Below, in pieces: positions 43,172 through 54,817 of a stretch of DNA of 64,000 bases. Origin of the DNA: Lachnospiraceae bacterium (lineage in GTDB: Bacteria; Bacillota; Clostridia; Lachnospirales; Lachnospiraceae); NCBI GenBank assembly GCA_015057365.1, contig SVEN01000003.1, positions 1-64,000 on the forward strand. The letters run 5' to 3'. A model generated the notes under the pieces. It was not told the DNA's origin. It searched no databases and saw only the letters and a program-made list of their open reading frames with translations. The translations under genes were made by a program, and so were the position numbers. Each line of letters starts with the position of its first letter. The first letter of the stretch is position 1.

Positions 43172-45532
43172 TCATTTCGCTTCCGTCCAATGTACCTTCT
43201 CCGTCGGAAGATGCAGGGCTAGCATTTCTTCCAGTTCGCTTACCGCCAACGGTTTCGATAAGTATCCTGCAAATCCTTCCTTTTCGTACATCTCTTCCAT
43301 CCCGGCAATCACATTTGCCGTCAACACCAGCACTTCTGTCTCTCGATTCGGTGTCTCTTCCTTGCGAAGCAAATGCAACGTTTCGATTCCGTCCAATTCA
43401 GGCATCATATGGTCCATCAATATCAAATCATATTTCTTCCGTCGACAGTTTTCCATACATTCCTGTCCGCTTTCTACCGTCTCCAGTTGGATTTGCGTCC
43501 GCTTCAATAATGCTTTCACCACTGCTAGATTCATTGCATTATCATCTACCGCCAGCACCGTTGCCTCCGGTGCCCGCAATATTTTTTCTACCGGTTCTTT
43601 TATGATACCGCTCTCCTGCTTTCCTGTATCTGCCGATGCAGTATCCTCCGGCAACTGCTGCGGTATCCTCACCGTAAAGCAAGAACCTTTTCCGTATTCA
43701 CTCTCTACCGTAATGCTTCCGCCCATGAAATCCAGCAATTGTTTTGTGATTGCAAGACCCAGACCGGTTCCCTCAATATGGCGGTTTTTCCGTTCTTCCA
43801 AACGTTGAAAACTGTCAAACAAACGCTCTGCATCCTCTTTCCTTATTCCGATTCCCGTATCTTTTACAGATGCACACAGAACGATTGTATTGCCGGCTTG
43901 TTCCCCGTGTATTGCAAAAGTAACGGTTCCCTGATGGGTATATTTTACTGCATTTGACAACAGATTGGTCAAAATCTGATTTACTCTGAGTTCATCACCC
44001 ACGACTTCCTCCGGAAGATCCGGAGACACTTCTACCACCGTCTGCAAATTCTTATTTCCTGCCTTGAACCGCAGGTTTTGTTCAATGGAACTCAACACTT
44101 TTTTAAGAGAATATCGCGTATTTGTCAAATCCAGTTTACCGGCTTCTATTTTCGAAAAGTCCAGCACATCGTTAATCAATCCCAACAAAAGCCGGCTGGA
44201 ATTCCCGATATTATTTGCATATTCCCGGATTACTTCATCCTCATTCTCCCGCAAAATCATTTCATTCATACCGATAATCGTATTAATCGGGGTTCGGATT
44301 TCATGCGACATCTGGGCCAGGAACTGCGCCTTGGCTTCTCCTGCCACCACCGCTCTCTGCTTTTCCTTTTCCACTGCCTGCAAATCGCGTCCCGTCTTTA
44401 AGGAAGCCATCAACAGAAGAAAACATAGCGCTCCGCAAAAAGCAAACCCGCCGCCGTTTTCTCCCGGACGGTAAACTTGATAGATTTCCCAAAAAGCAGC
44501 AACGATAATTCCTCCGAGTCCTACCCCCACTTCCCAATACTCTTTCATTCTGCGGCTCCTGATATCCGCAACCATAGTTCCTGCTCCCACAAGCAACGCC
44601 AACACCACAACCAGGTAATCCGCAAACATAGAATCCATATAATCTACAATCCCCGTAATATGCAGACCGGTGGAAATCAAAAAGTTTGCCGCTACGCATA
44701 CCAGCACGAGCATGTAGAACTTCCGATACCGCTTCTTCTGTATCAGATTTGCGTAAATCACAAACGGATACGGTGCCAGCATCGTCAAACAAAAGCCCAT
44801 AAGTGTGGCCACGGTAATATTCGGCAAATAAAACTGGCGGATGACCGACTCTACGATCAAAATCAAAGAGGTCAAAAAAGTACCCAGACCAAGATAAAGA
44901 ATATCAATTTCTTTTTTATGTATGACACAAAGAATCAGGCTCACTGCCACCGTAAGCAGGCTCAGAATTACCGTAGTAAACGAAACCAAAAGTAAAAGCC
45001 CGCTTTCCTCCATAAATTGATTTACAATATCCTGTTTCTCACCGGTGTACACCTGATTCATACGACCGGTATAGGCCGAATCACTTACGGTCTCTATTGC
45101 CAGTACTTTCCCTGCATCAGATGCATAGAGCGGAAAAAACACGTAGACGCTGGCACTGGTTTTTCCGAATGGCCGCATCTCCTTGGTAGAATATTCTTCT
45201 CGCAACTCACCCTCTACATAAATACGGACGTCCTGTTGGGAGCCTCGAATATATGCCCACGGATCCGTCATGGTTTCCGGCAACACCGCTTCCGCACGGA
45301 CAACCTCTCCCCGTTCCGCCTCCCACACGCCCGGAAGTGTTACATCTTCTCTGGCTCCGTCCGGATATACCCGTTCCCATCGGACCTCCAGTTCGTTCCG
45401 GCTCCCCTTCCGTGTAGGAACATCCGATGGTGTAAGCCACTCTCCCACAATGAAAAAAAGAAGCACAACAAGCAGGATTCCTCCCAAACCGTACTTCAGT
45501 ATTTTTTCTTTCTGCTCACTCCCGCTTTTCAT
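43172..45532 (-). CDS. Hybrid sensor histidine kinase with 7TM sensor region
   Basis: The 786-residue protein has an N-terminal helix, an extracytoplasmic domain (about 35-165: YPDGAREDVTLPGVWEAERGEVV, 7TMR-DISM-like) and about seven further transmembrane helices. The kinase core follows: HisKA AQFLAQMSHEIRTPINTIIG, N box VNQILTNLLSNAVKYT, DTGIGI, and GTGLGLAITKQLL. It ends in a receiver with EATVLAVDDNAMNLAV and LILMDHMMPELDGIET. No HPt or separate regulator is adjacent, so it must pass phosphate to a protein elsewhere, possibly the HPt-containing system at 49.9 kb. It has its own strong promoter and terminator. Confidence 0.92.
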   Translation of the reverse strand: MKSGSEQKEKILKYGLGGILLVVLLFFIVGEWLTPSDVPTRKGSRNELEVRWERVYPDGAREDVTLPGVWEAERGEVVRAEAVLPETMTDPWAYIRGSQQDVRIYVEGELREEYSTKEMRPFGKTSASVYVFFPLYASDAGKVLAIETVSDSAYTGRMNQVYTGEKQDIVNQFMEESGLLLLVSFTTVILSLLTVAVSLILCVIHKKEIDILYLGLGTFLTSLILIVESVIRQFYLPNITVATLMGFCLTMLAPYPFVIYANLIQKKRYRKFYMLVLVCVAANFLISTGLHITGIVDYMDSMFADYLVVVLALLVGAGTMVADIRSRRMKEYWEVGVGLGGIIVAAFWEIYQVYRPGENGGGFAFCGALCFLLLMASLKTGRDLQAVEKEKQRAVVAGEAKAQFLAQMSHEIRTPINTIIGMNEMILRENEDEVIREYANNIGNSSRLLLGLINDVLDFSKIEAGKLDLTNTRYSLKKVLSSIEQNLRFKAGNKNLQTVVEVSPDLPEEVVGDELRVNQILTNLLSNAVKYTHQGTVTFAIHGEQAGNTIVLCASVKDTGIGIRKEDAERLFDSFQRLEERKNRHIEGTGLGLAITKQLLDFMGGSITVESEYGKGSCFTVRIPQQLPEDTASADTGKQESGIIKEPVEKILRAPEATVLAVDDNAMNLAVVKALLKRTQIQLETVESGQECMENCRRKKYDLILMDHMMPELDGIETLHLLRKEETPNRETEVLVLTANVIAGMEEMYEKEGFAGYLSKPLAVSELEEMLALHLPTEKVHWTEAK

Positions 45533-45744: not shown

Positions 45745-47469
45745 ATGAAAATGTTATGGAAACTGACCAAGGAGGCCGCCCGCTACAAGGTCCTCTATAT
45801 TCTGGCAATCCTGTCCACACTACTACTGACCGGTGTGAACCTGACTGCTCCGAAACTGCTGTCCAAGATGACCGGTATCGTGGGGGAAGGCGTGGATGAT
45901 GCCGCATTAAAGCAGATTGTGTATCTTGCCATCGGACTGCTGGTGCTCTATTTACTTCGCATCGTGTTCCGATTTATGAATAATTATCTGGCCCACAAAG
46001 CTGCCTGGTACCTGGTGGGCGATTTGCGCGACCGCCTGTATAAGAAGCTCCAAAGCCTGGATTTGGGATTTTTCCACGACAAGCAGACCGGTGATTTGAT
46101 GAGCCGTGTCGTGAATGATACGAGAGACTTCGAGCTTCTGTACGCACACATGATTCCGGATATGATTACAAATCTTGTGACCTTCGGCGGCGTGCTAACC
46201 ATCCTTCTTGTTATCAACTGGAAGCTGGCTCTGATTACCTGCTTCCCGATTCCGCTCATCCTCATTTCCGGCGTGATTTTCGCAAAAAAAGTACGCCCGT
46301 TTTTTAAGGCGTCCCAGAAAAGTATGGGTGAATTAAATGCAAAGCTTCAGGACAATTTGTCCGGTCTTCACGAAATCCAGTCCTTCGGACAGGAGGCGGA
46401 AGAGGCAGCCCTTGTCAGCGAAAGTAACTTCACTCAGGTCCGTGCCATGCTCCGGGCCCTGCGGGCCAGTGCCATCTTCCACCCGAGCGTGGAGTTTGTT
46501 TCCTCCATCGGTACGGTGCTTGTGGTGGCTGTGGGCGGTTATTTGGCTTATTTAGGCCAGTTATCCGTAGAAGATATCGTAGCCTTCGTTTTATACCTAG
46601 GACTGTTTTACGCACCGATTTCGGGCCTTGCAAGCTGGCTTGAAAACCTCCAGCAGTCTCTGGCCGGTGCGGAGCGTGTGACTTTGATTCTGGATACCCC
46701 ATCCGCTATTGAAAATAAAGAAGATGCAAAAGACTTAGAAAATGTCTCCGGCGAGATTTCCTTCCGGAACGTTTCCTTCCACTACAGCAACAAGGTGCCG
46801 GTATTAAAGGACATTTCCTTTACCTGTAAGCCGGGCCAGATGGTAGCCCTCGTAGGTCCGACCGGTGTGGGCAAAACCACCATTACCCAGCTTATCTCCC
46901 GCTTCTACGACCCGGTAGAGGGTACGGTACTGGTAGACGGGCAGGACGTCCGCGATGTCACCTTAGAGAGTCTTCGTAAAAACATTTCCCCGGTATTGCA
47001 GGATACCTTCCTGTTCCACGGCTCCATTGCCGACAACATCGGCTACGCAAAGCCGGATGCCACCCGTGAGGAAATCATCGCCGCCGCAAAGGCAGCAAAC
47101 ATCCACGAAGACATCCTACATATGCCGGAAGAATACGAAACCCAAGTCGGTGAACGGGGTCTGCGCCTCTCCGGCGGTCAGAAACAGCGTGTTGCCATTG
47201 CCCGGGCCATCCTCCGCCAGTCTCCTATTATTATCTTAGACGAGGCAACTGCTTCTGTTGACGTGCAAACCGAACGCCAGATCCAGGCCGCCATTAACAA
47301 CATGGCCGGCAAACGCACCATCGTGGCCATCGCTCACCGTCTGTCCACCATAAAAAATGCAGACCTGATTTTGGTCATTCATGAAGGCGAAATTAAGGAA
47401 CAAGGAAGCCATGAAGAACTGCTGGCTCTGGGCGGAATCTATGCGCAGATGTTGAAGGCACAGGAATAG
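45745..47469 (+). CDS. ABC exporter, fused permease and ATP-binding protein
   Basis: The 574-residue half-transporter has six transmembrane helices in the type IV exporter domain (residues 1-310: FFHDKQTGDLMSRVVNDT as coupling helix). The nucleotide-binding domain carries Walker A GPTGVGKTT, Q-loop, signature LSGGQKQRVAIARAIL, Walker B IILDEATASVD and H-loop AIAHRLS. It likely acts as a homodimer exporting lipids, peptides or drugs; substrate is unknown. It is a single plus-strand gene between two signalling units, with its own regulated-looking promoter. Confidence 0.93.
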   Translation: MKMLWKLTKEAARYKVLYILAILSTLLLTGVNLTAPKLLSKMTGIVGEGVDDAALKQIVYLAIGLLVLYLLRIVFRFMNNYLAHKAAWYLVGDLRDRLYKKLQSLDLGFFHDKQTGDLMSRVVNDTRDFELLYAHMIPDMITNLVTFGGVLTILLVINWKLALITCFPIPLILISGVIFAKKVRPFFKASQKSMGELNAKLQDNLSGLHEIQSFGQEAEEAALVSESNFTQVRAMLRALRASAIFHPSVEFVSSIGTVLVVAVGGYLAYLGQLSVEDIVAFVLYLGLFYAPISGLASWLENLQQSLAGAERVTLILDTPSAIENKEDAKDLENVSGEISFRNVSFHYSNKVPVLKDISFTCKPGQMVALVGPTGVGKTTITQLISRFYDPVEGTVLVDGQDVRDVTLESLRKNISPVLQDTFLFHGSIADNIGYAKPDATREEIIAAAKAANIHEDILHMPEEYETQVGERGLRLSGGQKQRVAIARAILRQSPIIILDEATASVDVQTERQIQAAINNMAGKRTIVAIAHRLSTIKNADLILVIHEGEIKEQGSHEELLALGGIYAQMLKAQE

Positions 47470-47476
47470 CAAAACT

Positions 47477-47506
47477 AAGGGGTAGGCATCTTGCCTACCC
47501 TTTTTC
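47477..47506. terminator. Terminator between the ABC exporter and HD-GYP genes
   Basis: GGGTAGGC-ATCT-TGCCTACCC followed by TTTTTC on the plus strand lies between convergent genes. The opposite side has a weaker T tract. Confidence 0.82.
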
Positions 47507-47518
47507 TGCAATCAAACA

Positions 47519-48526
47519 TCATTCCGACTCTTTTCTTCGTCTGAGTTTTCCCTCATCGAATAACTGAAGAAAAATATCCAGAAAATACGGGTCAAACTGC
47601 GTTCCTTTTCCGTTGACCAGTTCCTTTCGGATCACCTCCGAACTTAAACTATCACGATAAATTCGTTTACTGTTCATGGCATCAAACGCATCGGCAATTC
47701 CGATAATGCGTGCCACTGCCGGAATCTCTTCTGCCGCCAGACCGCAAGGATAGCCGGTTCCGTTATATCGTTCATGATGATACCTTGCTCCTGCTTCAAT
47801 CTCCGGTATGGACTTAATCTCTTTCAAAATATCGGCTCCGATAATCGTATGAGACTTAATAATCGCGAATTCTTCCTCTGTCAATTTCCCCGGTTTATTT
47901 AAGACATGATCCGGAATACCTACTTTGCCGATATCGTGCAAAAGTGCGATATGTTGCAAATTAAGTATCGCTTGTTCTCTCCAACCGGCTCGTTCCGCAA
48001 GCATCACACTATACTCTGCTACCCGGACAGAATGTCCTTTTGTGTAGCTGTCTCTTGCCTCCAGCATACTGGATATGGTAGCGATTGTTTCAAACGTCAT
48101 TTTCTCAATCTGCGCCGTTTTCTCCATAACTTTCCGTTCCAGATAATGGGTCAGTTCGTCCAATTCCAGTACACGCCGTATTCTGTTTCGCATCACTTCC
48201 GGCATAAACGGCTTACGCACAAAGTCCGACGCCCCCTTCTTCAGGCAGGTTATTTCACTTTCAATGTCCGTATCCGCCGTCAAAAATATAACCGGCACAT
48301 TCTTCCCGTTCTCCAATTCCCGTAACCGATCGTAGGTTTCCATTCCATCCATCTCCGGCATAAGAAGGTCCAGTAACACCAAATCTACCGTATTGTTCTC
48401 TAAATATGCGAGAGCATCAAAGCCGGAACCCAACAACTCCAACTGATATTCTCCCTTTATCATATTTTCCACCAGCTTCAGATTCATTGTCGAGTCATCT
48501 ACTGCCAAAATACGCTTCATATGCAC
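47519..48526 (-). CDS. Response regulator with HD-GYP c-di-GMP phosphodiesterase
   Basis: The 335-residue protein has a receiver (ILAVDDSTMNLKLVENMI, phosphoacceptor in LVLLDLLMPEMDGMET) and an HD-GYP domain with all key residues: HSVRVAEYSVMLAE, ALLHDIGKVGIPD, IKSHTIIGADIL, GARYHHERYNGTGYPCGL. It should hydrolyse cyclic di-GMP under phosphorylation control. It is the last gene of the BMP/kinase operon, 32 bp after the GGDEF gene. Confidence 0.95.
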   Translation of the reverse strand: MHMKRILAVDDSTMNLKLVENMIKGEYQLELLGSGFDALAYLENNTVDLVLLDLLMPEMDGMETYDRLRELENGKNVPVIFLTADTDIESEITCLKKGASDFVRKPFMPEVMRNRIRRVLELDELTHYLERKVMEKTAQIEKMTFETIATISSMLEARDSYTKGHSVRVAEYSVMLAERAGWREQAILNLQHIALLHDIGKVGIPDHVLNKPGKLTEEEFAIIKSHTIIGADILKEIKSIPEIEAGARYHHERYNGTGYPCGLAAEEIPAVARIIGIADAFDAMNSKRIYRDSLSSEVIRKELVNGKGTQFDPYFLDIFLQLFDEGKLRRRKESE

Positions 48527-48558
48527 TACCCCCGTTTTTTGATCGAATCAATTCCGAC

Positions 48559-49911
48559 TTACATCGTTCTGACGTCGTAAGTCACCTTAACCTCTGTTTG
48601 CATCGCCCGGTTACTTTCATAGAACCGTTCTATCAACCGTTCTGCGGCTATTCTTCCGTGTTCGTCGTTAGTATCCATAAGGACTGCCAAATACTGGCAG
48701 TTGCTATACCTTGCTCCCGTATCCATAGAGCGAAGTGTACTTATCATTGCCTGTTCCCAACGCTTCATCACTTCTTCCATTCCCACGGTCATCGGCTTTT
48801 TCAGTTCTTCCATGGTAAACAAGACAATTTGAACCTTCTGATGCTTTCTGCTGACACAGCGCAAAATAAAGTCATACACATTTTTAAATTCTTCAAATGC
48901 CATATGAAATGCGCCCTTCTGCTCAGAGATTCCCTTTTCCATCACTCCTCTGACATACTCCAAATCCACTGTGGTAGTGATTTCTTCCATAGTTTCTGTG
49001 CTGTCACCATAGAAGAGATATGCGTTCTTTCCGTTTTCTTTCACAACATACAATGCTTTATCTGCCTGATTGTAAATCGTCTGGAAGTCTTCTCCGCCTG
49101 ACGTCATCATAATTCCGATGGACACGGATACAATACCGCCATACCCCATTTCTCCCATTTCTTCAGAGAATTTCCGGATAATATTCTGTGCCTTGTCTCC
49201 TGCTTCCTTGCGGTCCGTAAGATTCGGATAAAAGGTAACAAATTCATCTCCCGCAAGACGGCATACCATATCTCCTTCCTTCGAATACTCCTTTAATATC
49301 TGAGCAAACTTTTGCAGTGTCGTATCACCCATAATATGACCGTAAGTATCGTTCATCGTCTTAAAATTATCCAGGTCGATCATGAACAATGTTCCGACGC
49401 CGCCCATCTCCAGCCACTCCGTCAAATGCTTAACCAGATAATCTCTGTTGTGAATGCCGGTAAGTGCATCCGTAAGGGACTTCAGCGTTGCGGTTTCCAT
49501 TTGTTTGGTCCGCTTTTCCAACTTCATTTGCAATTCCCGACGAAGCTCATATATTTCCAATATCCGGCTGACTCTGGTATTCATGACCAACGGAACAAAC
49601 GGTTTAATAATAAAGTCGTCGGCTCCCCATTTCAAACATTCCACCTCGGTTGCCGGGTCGGAGTCTGCCGTCAGAAAAATCAACGGAATCTCCTTCCAAT
49701 CTTCTCTTTCTTTGATTCTTTGTGCGGTTTCCTTTCCACTCATCCCCGGCATCATGATATCCATCAATACCAAATCTACCGGTTGGCGTTCCAAAAACGT
49801 AAGTGCTTCCTCGCCGGAGCTAACCGTATCTACCTCGTAAGTATCTCCCAACGCTCCCTTTGCCATAACACAATTCATCCAATCATCATCTACTACAAGA
49901 ACTCGTTTCAT
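48559..49911 (-). CDS. Response regulator with GGDEF diguanylate cyclase and extra C-terminal domain
   Basis: The 450-residue protein has a receiver (VLVVDDDWMNCVMAK, LVLMDIMMPGMSGKET) and a GGDEF domain (DALTGIHNRDYLVKHL, DNFKTMNDTYGHIMGD, active-site loop RLAGDEF). The AGDEF variant is compatible with activity. A C-terminal region of about 130 residues (FEEFKNVYDFILRCV, QIVLFTM, STLRSMDTGARYSNCQYLAVLMDT) has the layout of a degenerate second GGDEF-like domain. It should make cyclic di-GMP under phosphorylation control. Start at 49911 follows GGGAGG. Confidence 0.93.
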   Translation of the reverse strand: MKRVLVVDDDWMNCVMAKGALGDTYEVDTVSSGEEALTFLERQPVDLVLMDIMMPGMSGKETAQRIKEREDWKEIPLIFLTADSDPATEVECLKWGADDFIIKPFVPLVMNTRVSRILEIYELRRELQMKLEKRTKQMETATLKSLTDALTGIHNRDYLVKHLTEWLEMGGVGTLFMIDLDNFKTMNDTYGHIMGDTTLQKFAQILKEYSKEGDMVCRLAGDEFVTFYPNLTDRKEAGDKAQNIIRKFSEEMGEMGYGGIVSVSIGIMMTSGGEDFQTIYNQADKALYVVKENGKNAYLFYGDSTETMEEITTTVDLEYVRGVMEKGISEQKGAFHMAFEEFKNVYDFILRCVSRKHQKVQIVLFTMEELKKPMTVGMEEVMKRWEQAMISTLRSMDTGARYSNCQYLAVLMDTNDEHGRIAAERLIERFYESNRAMQTEVKVTYDVRTM

Positions 49912-49928
49912 ATATCCTCCCATGTACT

Positions 49929-52454
49929 TTAATTACTTTTCATAAATTCTTTTGCCGCCGTTACGGTACAATCAAACATCCGTAGCATTTCCGGATGTTT
50001 TTGGGCAATCAATGCTTCATTCGCCTCGATTTCTTCTCCTGCCTGTATCTTTTTCCCCGCCAGTTCCAGCACATAACACAACTCACCCATCGGGTCTGCT
50101 CCGATGCTCCTTGCATTGGTTTTCAGCGCATGCACCTTTATGGTATAGTTTTTCATGTCTTTTGCGACAAGATATCCGGCAAGTTCTTCTTCTGCCGGGT
50201 TTCTCAACTCACAAAACATCGTCAGTATTTCGCAATACACTTCCGGGCTGTTGGCACAATACTCCAGACCTTTTTTTGTGTTAATCATCGTTTCTTCCGA
50301 TACGTGCTTCACATCTGTCTCCGGCACCGTCTGAAGCGAATCCGGAGTCTTCCCCTCATCGTTTACTTCAATTCTGTCTTCCGGCAAATGCGCAAGCAGC
50401 ATTTCCTCCAATCTCTTTCCGTTTATCGGTTTACTTAAATAATCATCAAAACCTTCCGATAAATACATCTCCCTTACCCCGGAAAATGCATTGGCTGTCA
50501 AAGCGATTACCGGTGTCCTGCGACCGGTGTCGTTTTCGGACGCTCTTATTCGTTTTAACGTCTCTATTCCGTCGATTCCCGGCATCATATGATCCAGAAG
50601 AATCAAATCATAGGTCTCCTTCTCCAGAAGTTCCAATGCCTGTAAGCCGCTCATAGCTTCCGTAATCCGTACTCCGGTAAGTTCCAACAATTTTTTTGCA
50701 ACCAAAAGATTCATACTGTTATCGTCTACTACCAAAATCTTTGCACTCGGCGCATGAAAAGAAACTTCATAGGAGTATTCGGTTGTTTCCTGTCTCCGTC
50801 CTTTTTCACTAAAGTTGCCGATTACCCCGTCACCTACAATCTCTTGTTCCAATGTCAGAGTAAATACGGACCCAGTTCCGTAAACACTCTCCACATCAAT
50901 TTTTCCGTTCATCATTGTTGCCAGTTTATGTGTAATGGCAAGTCCAAGACCGGTTCCCTCTATGTTCCGGTTTTTCTCCAGATCAAGACGCTGAAAGCCC
51001 TTAAATAACGCTTTCATCTCCTCTTCTTTAATACCGATTCCGGTATCTTCTACCGCCACCTTCAGTACTATCCTTTGTTCTTTTTCGCCCCGGTCCCCCT
51101 TTACTTTCAGCCGTACGGTCCCTTCTTTCGTATACTTTACCGCATTATTCAGTAAATTCAGCATAATCTGTTTAATACGATTGTCATCACCGAATAACCG
51201 TTCCGGAAGCGTTTCTTCCACCTCTACTTCAAATACCAGTCCCTTCTTTTTTGCACGAATGTCCACCATATTGATGACATCGGTTAACAGCTCCTCCAAC
51301 TTGTAGTTGTGCTCATAGATTTCCATTTTCCCGGACTCGATTTTGGAGAAATCTAAAATGTCATTAATGATATTCAACAGATTCCGACTGGCACTTTTTA
51401 TGTTATACGCATACTCTAAAACACTCTTGTCCTTACTCTCTCTGAGAATCATCTCATTCATGCCGATTACGGCGTTAATCGGCGTTCTGATTTCGTGGGA
51501 CATACTGGCCAGAAAATCACTCTTTGCCTGATTTGCCTTTTCCGCAATGAGCTTTGCCTGCCGGAATTCATCACTTTCTCTGGCTTTCTTTTCCGCACTC
51601 ATAAGATACACAATTACGATAACCAAAAGCAACCAGAGAAGGCCGAAACACCAAAGTACCAACGGAATAATCAGCGAAACATCTCCGGATACGGTTTCCG
51701 CCGGTACATACCCCCGGATATAAAGGTTGTAATAATCGGTCTCTGCCGCAAAAAGAATATTGTCACCGTAAGCATTCTCTTCATATACCGCTGCCGAAAA
51801 GTTTATACTCATCTTCTCGGCAATTACCCGAAACGCCTCCCGGTGTGCCTCATTTTGAAAAAAATCCTTTGTAAGACTACTGTTTTCTTCCCTCAACACA
51901 ATATTGCCGTCAACATCCGTAAGTACGCATTCGCCCTGTCCGTCATAACAGGTGAGGTCAATCTTCCGTGCCATTGCGGCGCTGTCGTAACACTTGTATA
52001 GTACATACTTTACATTTGCACCGTTATACACCGGCACGGCGAATAGCATCGAATTGTTGTTGCCGCTACACACCGACGCATTCCCGTGCAATGCATCAAA
52101 AATCCCACTATACTCCTTAAAATCCAGCGTTTCTCCGTACGCTGCTTCCCCATTAATTCGAAGTACGCCGTATGTTACGCCTTCCTCTTCCCGGAAGAAC
52201 TCCGGAATACTGCCGTCGGATAACCGGACAAAGACCGTCGCATCCTGTAAAAGACGTAATTCATCTCCGAAACTGCTGTTGATTCTTGCCGAGATTGCTT
52301 TCCCTTGTTCCGCTACATGATGCTCCAGCTGTTCATTGATAATATTACGCATCTTTCCCCACATAACCAGGCAGACGAGGATCAGTATGCCAAAACTGAT
52401 TGCCATGAGAAATACGGTGTTTTTCAGTTTCGCGGTATTTCCTTTCTTACTCAT
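49929..52454 (-). CDS. Hybrid histidine kinase with receiver and HPt domains
   Basis: The 841-residue protein has two transmembrane helices (about 12-34 and 265-290) around an extracytoplasmic sensor of about 230 residues resembling a Cache-type domain. The kinase part has DFLASMSHEIRTPINAVIG, MLNLLNNAVKYT, DTGIGIKEEE and GTGLGLAITHKL. A receiver (KILVVDDNSMNLLVA, LILLDHMMPGIDGIET) and a C-terminal HPt (KVHALKTNARSIGA) follow. The HPt histidine would pass phosphate to the two following response regulators. Its start overlaps the end of a BMP-type gene by 8 bp, linking sensing and kinase. Confidence 0.95.
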   Translation of the reverse strand: MSKKGNTAKLKNTVFLMAISFGILILVCLVMWGKMRNIINEQLEHHVAEQGKAISARINSSFGDELRLLQDATVFVRLSDGSIPEFFREEEGVTYGVLRINGEAAYGETLDFKEYSGIFDALHGNASVCSGNNNSMLFAVPVYNGANVKYVLYKCYDSAAMARKIDLTCYDGQGECVLTDVDGNIVLREENSSLTKDFFQNEAHREAFRVIAEKMSINFSAAVYEENAYGDNILFAAETDYYNLYIRGYVPAETVSGDVSLIIPLVLWCFGLLWLLLVIVIVYLMSAEKKARESDEFRQAKLIAEKANQAKSDFLASMSHEIRTPINAVIGMNEMILRESKDKSVLEYAYNIKSASRNLLNIINDILDFSKIESGKMEIYEHNYKLEELLTDVINMVDIRAKKKGLVFEVEVEETLPERLFGDDNRIKQIMLNLLNNAVKYTKEGTVRLKVKGDRGEKEQRIVLKVAVEDTGIGIKEEEMKALFKGFQRLDLEKNRNIEGTGLGLAITHKLATMMNGKIDVESVYGTGSVFTLTLEQEIVGDGVIGNFSEKGRRQETTEYSYEVSFHAPSAKILVVDDNSMNLLVAKKLLELTGVRITEAMSGLQALELLEKETYDLILLDHMMPGIDGIETLKRIRASENDTGRRTPVIALTANAFSGVREMYLSEGFDDYLSKPINGKRLEEMLLAHLPEDRIEVNDEGKTPDSLQTVPETDVKHVSEETMINTKKGLEYCANSPEVYCEILTMFCELRNPAEEELAGYLVAKDMKNYTIKVHALKTNARSIGADPMGELCYVLELAGKKIQAGEEIEANEALIAQKHPEMLRMFDCTVTAAKEFMKSN

Positions 52455-53541
52455 GTAATACTACCCCCTCCACATACCAGTCCATTTTCTCAAGTAGCAC
52501 CTCATCACTCAGACTTTCTCCGTTATCACAGCGAAGCTGCCCCGTATTATCGTATATCACGTTAGAAAACACACTGTTTTCCGCCATGAAAGATTTTACA
52601 TGCGCTATCTCCTGTCGTAGTTCTTCCGGAACAAGCGGAGAATACTCTCCCAGACCTACCGCTCCGGTCTCAATCCCGAACCAATGTCGCTTTATATTGT
52701 TTGCTTCTCCGGTCAAACGTTCCCGGACAATTTTACAATACAGTTCCTCCCAATTCCAGACACTGGCCGTCAAATAGCGTTCCGATAAACCTTCTTCCAT
52801 CTCGTTGTATCCGATGGAATACACGCCTGCCTTATCCGCTGCTATCGCCACAAAGTGTTGATTTTGATGATAGGTTATCAAATCAACCTCAAATTCCTCA
52901 ATGAGTCGCTCTGTGGCCGCTTCTTCCTTTTCACGATCATCCCATGCCTGTGTCCATATCACATGTACCTGTGCCTCCGGATTTACACTTCGTACCCCCA
53001 ATGTAAAGGCATTGATTCCGCGATTCACCTCACTGTTGGCCATCGCCGCCACATAACCGATCGAATTGTTTTGTGTCATCCTGCCGGCAAGGACACCCGA
53101 TAAATATCTAGCCTGATACATCCGTCCGAAATAGGAGGTCATATTATCTGCATAATACTCCGCAGATATCCCGTAAAATGCCACGTCCGGATAGCTTTGA
53201 ATCACATCCCGCATCAATGACGGATATGCATAGCTTGACAAAATAATCATAGAGGCACCTTCTTTTACCAGACTGTGTACCGCCTTCGCACAGCTGTCAC
53301 TATCCTCCGGCACATGCTCTTTCACAAGCAATTCCGTACCCAGCTTCTCACACGCATATCGTACTCCCCGGTAATGCGCACTGTTCCAGCCCTGTTCATC
53401 AACGGAACCCGTAATTATCAAGCCTACCTTCATTGCTTTTTCCTTTTTGTTTCCGGTAATCAGAATCCCGATCAACAAAATCGCCAGTACCACACCGATT
53501 GCCACAAGCAATATTCTTTGAAACAGCTTACTGTTTTTCAT
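52447..53541 (-). CDS. Membrane-anchored BMP-family binding protein 1
   Basis: The 364-residue protein has an N-terminal transmembrane anchor without a lipobox cysteine (ILLVAIGVVLAILLIGILITG). A BMP/Med-type type I periplasmic binding domain follows: KVGLIITGSVDEQGWNSAHYRGV, EVNRGINAFTLGVRSVNPEA, IWTQAWDDREKEEAATERLI, GVYSIGYNEM. Family members bind purine nucleosides and normally serve ABC importers, but none is encoded here. The ORF track starts at a TTG one codon early. It overlaps both the preceding BMP gene and the following kinase gene. Confidence 0.9.
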   Translation of the reverse strand: MKNSKLFQRILLVAIGVVLAILLIGILITGNKKEKAMKVGLIITGSVDEQGWNSAHYRGVRYACEKLGTELLVKEHVPEDSDSCAKAVHSLVKEGASMIILSSYAYPSLMRDVIQSYPDVAFYGISAEYYADNMTSYFGRMYQARYLSGVLAGRMTQNNSIGYVAAMANSEVNRGINAFTLGVRSVNPEAQVHVIWTQAWDDREKEEAATERLIEEFEVDLITYHQNQHFVAIAADKAGVYSIGYNEMEEGLSERYLTASVWNWEELYCKIVRERLTGEANNIKRHWFGIETGAVGLGEYSPLVPEELRQEIAHVKSFMAENSVFSNVIYDNTGQLRCDNGESLSDEVLLEKMDWYVEGVVLHE

Positions 53542-54625
53542 CAATCACCACCCCTTCCACGTACCAGTCAAAACTGTTCAGCATAGCGGAATCGGTCATA
53601 CTTTCTCCTTCTTCCACCCGAATCCGGCCTTTGTTGTCCCGAATCGGACCGTAAAACACGTCAAAATTGCCGCTAATCAGAAGTTGTTGTCTGACATCCA
53701 CTTCTTCCTGCACACCTGCCTTTACCACGGCAGATAACGGAGCCATAGACACCATCCCTGTCTCCACACCTTCCCAATAATGGTGACCTTCAAATTTCCC
53801 TTGCAGGCAGGTCAGAATATGTGGCGTATAAAAATTCTCCCAATCCCAAACCGCCGCCGTTAAAAAGGTATTTGGATAATGAGCACTGTTATCTACATTA
53901 TAACCGATAGACATTACTCCGCAACGCTCAGCCACCTCCAACGGTTTTATCGAGTCACTGTGCATAGCCATGATATCTATTTCATATTCATCGATTAACC
54001 GTTCGGCCGCCTGTTCCGCTGCCGTATCATCATTCCAGGAATTCGTCCAACAAACGTATACCTCTGCCTCCGGATTGACACTGCGAACACCGAGGGTAAA
54101 GGCATTAATCCCTCGATTTACCTCAGCAATGGGAAACGCCGCTACATATCCGATACGTCCGGTTTCTGTCTGCATTCCTGCCACAATCCCGGTCAAATAG
54201 CGAATCTGATACATTCTCCCGAAATAGCTGGATAGATTCTTCCCTTCTCCTACGCCCGTTGCGTGAAAGAAATAAATCTCCGGATATTTCTCCGCTGCCT
54301 CTTCCATTCCGGTTCCGAATTCAAACGAGTTCGCTACGATAATCTCACATCCGGAATGTATCAGTTCATCGATTACACCGCATATGGTTTCTGTCGTAAC
54401 CGTTTCTTTATAAATCAACTCCAAATTTAACTGTGTTGCTGTTTTCTCCAATCCTTCATAATGAGACTGACACCAGTTCCGGTCATCTTTCTTTCCGTTT
54501 AAAATCACTCCGACTTTGGTAGTTTCTTCCGTTACCATCGTTTCCGTTTCACGGGTTGTAATCACAAATATTCCGACAATAATCGCAAGAATAATCACTC
54601 CGGAAATCATAAACACTTTTTTCAT
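53528..54625 (-). CDS. Membrane-anchored BMP-family binding protein 2
   Basis: The 365-residue protein is a paralogue of its downstream neighbour: a single N-terminal anchor (MISGVIILAIIVGIFVITT, no Cys lipobox), then KVGVILNGKKDDRNWCQSHYEGL, SYFGRMYQIRYLTGIVAGMQTETGRIGYVAAF, EVNRGINAFTLGVRSVNPEA and VCWTNSWNDDTAAEQAAERLI. It is the first gene of the operon, preceded by SD AAAGGAG and a consensus promoter. I infer that it binds a nucleoside-like ligand outside the membrane and, alone or with its paralogue, modulates the kinase. Confidence 0.9.
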   Translation of the reverse strand: MKKVFMISGVIILAIIVGIFVITTRETETMVTEETTKVGVILNGKKDDRNWCQSHYEGLEKTATQLNLELIYKETVTTETICGVIDELIHSGCEIIVANSFEFGTGMEEAAEKYPEIYFFHATGVGEGKNLSSYFGRMYQIRYLTGIVAGMQTETGRIGYVAAFPIAEVNRGINAFTLGVRSVNPEAEVYVCWTNSWNDDTAAEQAAERLIDEYEIDIMAMHSDSIKPLEVAERCGVMSIGYNVDNSAHYPNTFLTAAVWDWENFYTPHILTCLQGKFEGHHYWEGVETGMVSMAPLSAVVKAGVQEEVDVRQQLLISGNFDVFYGPIRDNKGRIRVEEGESMTDSAMLNSFDWYVEGVVIDEKQ

Positions 54626-54697: not shown

Positions 54698-54726
54698 ATT
54701 ATACAATATCTTCCATATAATCACAA
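54698..54726 (-). promoter_or_regulatory. Promoter of the BMP/kinase/c-di-GMP operon
   Basis: The minus strand reads TTGTGA, a 17-base spacer and TATAAT, 73 bases before the first ATG. Confidence 0.8.
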
Positions 54727-54733
54727 CACTTTG

Positions 54734-54777
54734 AAAAAAATAAAGAGGATGTCACATAGTAAAATGCAACATCCTCT
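54734..54777 (-). terminator. Terminator of the flavin oxidoreductase gene
   Basis: AGAGGATGT...ACATCCTCT followed by TTATTTTTTT on the minus strand lies about 40 bases after the stop codon. Confidence 0.82.
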
Positions 54778-54817
54778 TCCTACATCAAAGCAATCTATCG
54801 GCTCTGCTTATTTTGTA

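Follow-up and report, generated by a model that had tools for sequence, protein, structure and literature searches.

Paired BMP-Family Binding Proteins Linked to a Hybrid Histidine Kinase, a Candidate Three-Component Surface Receptor with Cyclic Di-GMP Outputs in a Lachnospiraceae Bacterium

Here, we report the analysis of a five-gene locus of a Lachnospiraceae bacterium (GenBank assembly GCA_015057365.1), carried on the first 64,000 nucleotides of contig SVEN01000003.1 (the window), in which two predicted membrane-anchored binding proteins of the BMP/PnrA family (BMP1 and BMP2) are encoded directly ahead of a hybrid histidine kinase and two response regulators with cyclic di-GMP (c-di-GMP) enzyme domains. 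The pair probably serves as the external part of a three-component surface receptor, binding a ligand on behalf of the kinase instead of feeding an importer. The source is a metagenome-assembled genome (MAG; 83% complete), and Lachnospiraceae MAGs of ruminant-gut origin are its closest relatives.

Organization of the locus

A preliminary description of the window had placed five genes on one transcript, and all five were recovered on the minus strand (open reading frames [ORFs] and Pfam), along with the following elements.

53528 to 54625, minus strand: BMP1 gene, PnrA/BMP-type binding protein of 365 amino acids, predicted uncleaved N-terminal membrane anchor, no lipobox
52447 to 53541, minus strand: BMP2 gene, BMP1 paralogue of 364 to 365 amino acids, N-terminal anchor, no lipobox
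49929 to 52454, minus strand: hybrid histidine kinase gene, 841 amino acids, dCache-like outer domain, HisKA, HATPase_c, REC, HPt
48559 to 49923, minus strand: REC-GGDEF response regulator gene (Pfam), AGDEF catalytic motif
47519 to 48526, minus strand: REC-HD-GYP response regulator gene (PF13487 and PF00072), HDIGK and HHERYNGTGYP motifs
54698 to 54726, minus strand: promoter-like TTGTGA-17-TATAAT 5' of BMP1, a consensus match only
54742 to 54779, minus strand: terminator-like stem-loop, which would end the preceding oxidoreductase gene and isolate the operon
47480 to 47500, minus strand: terminator-like hairpin after the HD-GYP gene, common to a convergent ABC exporter gene

The operon was first described as one overlapping transcript; BMP1/BMP2 (14 nucleotides) and BMP2/kinase (8 nucleotides) do overlap, but the last two junctions are close gaps (kinase/GGDEF, 5 nucleotides; GGDEF/HD-GYP, 32 nucleotides). 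The TTGTGA-17-TATAAT site is present as described (54726 to 54698), placed between the first terminator-like stem (54779 to 54742) and BMP1, and is graded as suggestive only, because such sites are no commoner in the region than chance would give (24 found; 18.7 ± 4.1 expected). Outside the operon, a second hybrid kinase (43172 to 45532) has an N-terminal region resembling several membrane helices and has no HPt.

BMP1 and BMP2

Both proteins lie far above the PF02608 gathering cut-off of 24.1 bits (BMP1, 180 bits; BMP2, 173 bits; Pfam) and are 38% identical to each other (pairwise alignment). The N-terminal anchor regions of both were checked and neither holds a Cys, in agreement with the anchored, lipobox-free pair proposed earlier. 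No further PF02608 protein was found in the source MAG at its 83% completeness.

BMP pairs were sought in 85,462 species genomes, and the best 80 of 203 loci were kept; nearly all of these best 80 are named Lachnospiraceae, Oscillospiraceae, or related gut clostridia. Gene calls in relatives were mechanical ORFs with phmmer labels. In the resulting tree, BMP1 (80/80; support, 1.0) and BMP2 (80/80; support, 0.98) form separate clades, both of which stand apart from 21 transporter-linked BMPs. A lipobox is absent from almost all pair BMPs, whereas most transporter-linked BMPs have a lipobox-like Cys. When divergent members from another family (f62) were added, the BMP1 clade stayed firm, and BMP2 still grouped, with a support of only 0.38. 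The BMP1/BMP2 ORF overlap is kept in 81 of 84 adjacent pairs, with start codons picked by a simple score for ribosome sites.

BMP-like proteins of about 650 amino acids in other Lachnospiraceae were rejected as a separate kind, adjoining metallophosphatase genes (L173, 3602 to 5560; L174, 4018 to 5952; L175, 3783 to 5705). These proteins are common in the family; they carry the BMP domain in the C-terminal half, and the N-terminal half has no Pfam match.

Linkage of the BMP genes to the kinase

Nearly every locus of the BMP-seeded set that is long enough to show it has the order BMP, BMP, kinase (sensor domain, histidine kinase, REC, HPt). For 94 of 94 annotated module kinases, most of them from BMP-seeded loci, the immediately upstream gene is a same-strand BMP gene. 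Because the first scan was seeded on the BMPs, a second search was seeded on the kinase outer domain alone, in draws of 150 family, 399 phylum, and 246 order genomes (strong matches, E < 1e-70 in the family draw and E < 1e-39 in the phylum draw). The family draw yielded 11 sensors in 10 genomes, and the phylum draw yielded 11 more in 5 genomes of f62; the order draw (246 genomes) gave no additional strong sensor matches. The sensor-seeded sample therefore comprised 22 sensors from 15 genomes, counting the window. All 22 lie directly downstream of a BMP gene, which is a BMP1-BMP2 pair in 13 cases, BMP2 alone in 8, and BMP1 alone in 1. A wide gap separates the strong matches of the family draw from the next best (E about 1e-22), and weak matches (E from 1e-22 to 1e-10), considered as possible kinases without a BMP, were other BMP-less dCache-type proteins outside this sensor family, some with GGDEF.

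One genome (G135) carries the two BMP genes on separate contigs (L134 and L135), each BMP being followed by its own kinase copy; one locus reads BMP1, kinase, REC-GGDEF and the other reads BMP2, kinase. The f62 loci L165 to L171 are BMP2-only modules, several of them preceded by REC-HD-GYP. The split locus and the BMP2-only loci are natural experiments on which BMP can work alone.

As far as gene order tells, the conserved core of the five-gene arrangement is BMP1-BMP2-kinase; the GGDEF and HD-GYP outputs vary and can be swapped from lineage to lineage, which the core cannot.

Kinase outer domain and co-variation with the BMPs

In the kinase, HisKA, HATPase_c, and REC all exceed their Pfam cut-offs, and the HPt is weak (18.8 bits; cut-off, 24.6). 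Phospho-acceptor sites were read in all three places expected of a hybrid kinase with receiver and HPt (SHEIRTP, the receiver Asp, and the HPt His motif); the domain composition given in the preliminary description stands. The outer domain (residues ~34 to 262) lies between two transmembrane helices. Its AlphaFold model (predicted local distance difference test, 88) shows a long N-terminal helix, two Cache-like halves, and the second membrane helix, and Foldseek searches of the PDB returned dCache ligand-binding domains (PctA, CtaA, and Mlp24) and histidine kinase outer domains. Pfam dCache_1 matched weakly, in 18 of 43 orthologues. On its predicted fold, the outer domain is dCache-like. Mean identity to the window protein is 39% for this sensor domain versus 63% for the kinase core.

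Evolutionary distances were compared by the mirror-tree approach over 55 nonredundant loci. Sensor distances track those of BMP1 (r = 0.74) and BMP2 (r = 0.75) more closely than those of the sensor's own kinase core (r = 0.44). After removal of the core and REC signal, partial correlations were 0.65 (BMP1) and 0.68 (BMP2), and 0 of 5,000 permutations were as high; the HPt control reached only 0.15 to 0.18 (before de-duplication). Co-variation of this kind is the pattern expected from a binding interface or from shared ligand specificity and is not proof of contact.

Binding pocket and candidate ligand

The best solved relatives of both BMPs are AtzT, whose affinity for guanine is about 110 nM, and PDB 3s99, in which adenine is modelled (PMC6834077). 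AtzT numbering was checked against that paper, and a single offset reproduced all nine residues named there (PMC6834077). The AtzT-type pocket residues of the window proteins are W51, S100, F101, E168, W197, H222, and D224 in BMP1 and W52, S103, Y104, E171, W200, H225, and N227 in BMP2. Most BMP1 proteins share the contact string WSFEWHD and nearly all BMP2 proteins share WSYEWHN; AtzT has YSFEWNN, and transporter-linked BMPs mostly have YSWEWHD. Four AtzT guanine-contact positions (aromatic 45, Ser97, Glu165, and Trp194) are kept in both clades. At AtzT positions 218 and 220 (Asn and Asn), the BMPs have His followed by Asp or Asn, and 3s99 has His and Asp (alignment). The residue at AtzT Asn220 is near-fixed as Asp in BMP1 versus Asn in BMP2.

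Judged from these alignments, both clades appear to retain a purine-type pocket and differ near-fixedly at one contact. The nucleoside-like signal first proposed is better read as purine-base-like, because the closest solved relatives have guanine bound or adenine modelled and most pocket positions are conserved. A more elaborate scheme, tentative and on the doubtful side, is that the two BMPs, with Asp versus Asn at this contact, bind different purines and form one heteromeric receptor on the kinase, which would weigh two extracellular purines against each other and set c-di-GMP through opposed enzymes, as a dual-input, dual-output purine receptor.

c-di-GMP outputs

The HD-GYP protein (PF13487, 116 bits) has canonical HDIGK and HHERYNGTGYP motifs, and the REC-GGDEF protein has WspR-type, PleD, and DgcR structures as its best Foldseek matches. 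Orthologues carry AGDEF or GGDEF and HDxGK...HHExxxGxGYP; going by these motifs, the output enzymes look active where present.

The REC-GGDEF protein has a further C-terminal domain (residues about 338 to 454), in which LRSMDTGARYSNCQYLAVL aligns in register with LRxxDxxxRxGGDEFxxLL, the pattern of GGDEF domains. The R and D of the C-terminal LRxxD are present in 25 of 25 aligned proteins, and the catalytic GGDEF is lost, replaced by, e.g., SSSQY. Comparison of hidden Markov models (HMM-HMM) between this domain and the GGDEF domain of the same protein gave no support for kinship, so the assignment as a degenerate GGDEF is based only on motif register and predicted topology. The domain may be a second, noncatalytic GGDEF that keeps the RxxD product-binding site, possibly for feedback through c-di-GMP binding.

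Among 71 other loci for which 4.5 kb or more of downstream sequence was available, c-di-GMP genes nearby are HD-GYP only in 24, GGDEF only in 19, both in 8, and neither in 20. The window, with both enzymes, is therefore in the minority, and the opposed make-and-break outputs claimed for the locus are not a fixed property of the module. Kinases fused to outputs (e.g., HK-REC-REC-HDGYP) stand beside the module in L048, L045, L052, L055, and L072, often with stand-alone REC proteins, and in L048 the HD-GYP fusion is on the module kinase itself; these arrangements suggest repeated rewiring to HD-GYP outputs.

Such variety speaks for a rival reading, in which the BMP-kinase unit is a genuine receptor that signals mainly to a transcription factor or to some other receiver encoded elsewhere, the c-di-GMP genes being local passengers. 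Stand-alone REC proteins or additional hybrid kinases do occur at several loci. We consider this reading unlikely: c-di-GMP genes, many with a receiver, occur near 51 of the 71 loci, often as the next gene, and those of the window follow within 5 and 32 nucleotides and end at a terminator-like hairpin.

Proposed mechanism

We propose that the two anchored PnrA/BMP proteins do not serve an importer; they would bind a small ligand, with a purine base as the likeliest candidate, and attach to the hybrid kinase at its dCache-like outer domain. The ligand state of the BMPs would then set kinase activity, upward or downward, and phosphate would pass from the His to the internal REC, to the HPt, and on to stand-alone receivers. 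In the source genome, the adjacent REC-GGDEF and REC-HD-GYP proteins would take that part, and c-di-GMP would thus be under the control of the signal. The view of the BMP pair as a surface sensor that tunes the kinase, already put forward in the preliminary description, gains support from gene linkage, the separate clades, and co-variation, with corrections to the ligand class and to the idea of fixed opposed outputs. The preliminary description had named three findings that would count against it, and none was borne out: pair-type BMP genes do not adjoin import permease genes, the sensor-seeded search turned up no kinase lacking a BMP gene directly ahead of it, and the BMP1/BMP2 overlap is conserved.

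Several observations weigh against this proposal. A mirror-tree correlation does not require contact, since shared selection can produce one, and 20 of the 71 loci have no c-di-GMP gene nearby. Some f62 copies (L169 to L171) have degraded pockets and may no longer bind ligand; since f62 also often has a single BMP2, ligand binding by both BMPs is not universal. Finally, the complex is one that we infer, and the dCache-like domain could sense ligand by itself.

This last point leads to a rival account, in which the dCache-like domain is the actual receptor and the BMPs, as high-affinity co-receptors or ligand buffers, do no more than raise its sensitivity, a role reported for CuaD toward CuaS. 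Many dCache domains bind ligands directly, the fold matches here include amino-acid and uric-acid receptors, and CuaSR still responds without CuaD (PMC10384115). We nevertheless judge it quite improbable, given that the sensor-seeded search found no kinase without a BMP and that the sensor domain diverges fast (39% versus 63% identity for the core) and in step with the BMPs.

The proposal of a kinase-linked receptor also agrees with the lack of permease and ATPase genes beside the BMP genes, as first claimed. No import permease adjoins the operon in the window, where the nearest ABC gene (45745 to 47469, opposite strand) resembles an exporter. Across the 15 module-bearing genomes, no BPD_transp_2 (PF02653) permease lies closer to a module than about 18.7 kb (nearest, G135 contig 11). 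The source MAG has only two BPD_transp_2 permeases, on another contig in a Liv-type amino-acid importer operon that also encodes a Peripla_BP_6 protein; a purine importer could still lie in the 17% of the MAG that is missing. BMP family members normally serve ABC importers, and some module-bearing relatives carry extra BMPs or BPD_transp_2 permeases elsewhere. It is nevertheless very unlikely that the anchored BMPs are ordinary importer subunits that supply purines to an ABC transporter from another locus, with the kinase linkage merely co-regulating uptake: the only such permeases of the 83% complete MAG belong to an importer with its own binding protein, the pair BMPs form clades apart from transporter BMPs, lack a lipobox and co-vary with the sensor domain, and in the sensor-seeded set the BMP gene is in every case followed directly by the kinase gene.

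If the proposed receptor is real, it adds a family usually filed as "purine/nucleoside importer" to the short list of external antennae of kinases and offers a concrete route from extracellular purines to c-di-GMP in ruminant-gut Lachnospiraceae and Oscillospiraceae. The data suggest that the automatic label "ABC transporter substrate-binding protein" is wrong for the whole clade.

Comparison with known systems

A literature search on the BMP family in connection with histidine kinases, diguanylate cyclases, or PnrA turned up no account of the module among openly licensed papers, in line with the preliminary description, which knew of none for this exact combination. TorT/TorS (trimethylamine N-oxide sensing) likewise joins a type I binding protein to a tripartite HK-REC-HPt hybrid kinase, and the window kinase region scores well against NCBIfam TorS, yet below the cut-off. 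It differs in that TorT is a single binding protein outside the BMP family, the TorS sensor domain is all-helical, and the output is a transcription regulator. LuxP/LuxQ (autoinducer 2 sensing) also pairs a type I binding protein with a hybrid kinase; the outer domain of LuxQ has a tandem PAS/Cache fold, and the window sensor is dCache-like. LuxP, however, is soluble, single, and not a BMP, and LuxQ has no internal HPt and signals to LuxU/LuxO. Med (the ComK activator; PDB 2hqb) is a BMP-type protein with a regulatory role, but it is a single protein with no kinase partner known to us, and window BMP matches to it reach 94 to 98 bits versus 158 to 196 for AtzT.

AtzT and 3s99 are the best solved sequence relatives and share the aromatic 45, S97, E165, and W194 positions, but they are periplasmic and thought to serve uptake (PMC6834077); AtzT also has Asn 218 where both window BMPs have His, and window BMP1 has Asp at 220. 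The closest parallels in organization are CuaD/CuaS/CuaR and XylFII/LytS of clostridia, Gram-positive three-component systems with the binding-protein gene beside the kinase gene and a complex of binding protein and kinase (PMC10384115). For CuaD/CuaS of a clostridium, the complex was tested, and the CuaS outer domain alone had no detectable ligand affinity (PMC10384115). These systems use sugar-binding proteins of other families, one per system, and have no c-di-GMP enzymes; CuaS and LytS are not REC-HPt hybrids. The present module departs from CuaD/CuaS in that its binding proteins belong to the BMP/PnrA family and come as an anchored pair, its kinase is a REC-HPt hybrid with a dCache-like outer domain, and c-di-GMP outputs are frequent.

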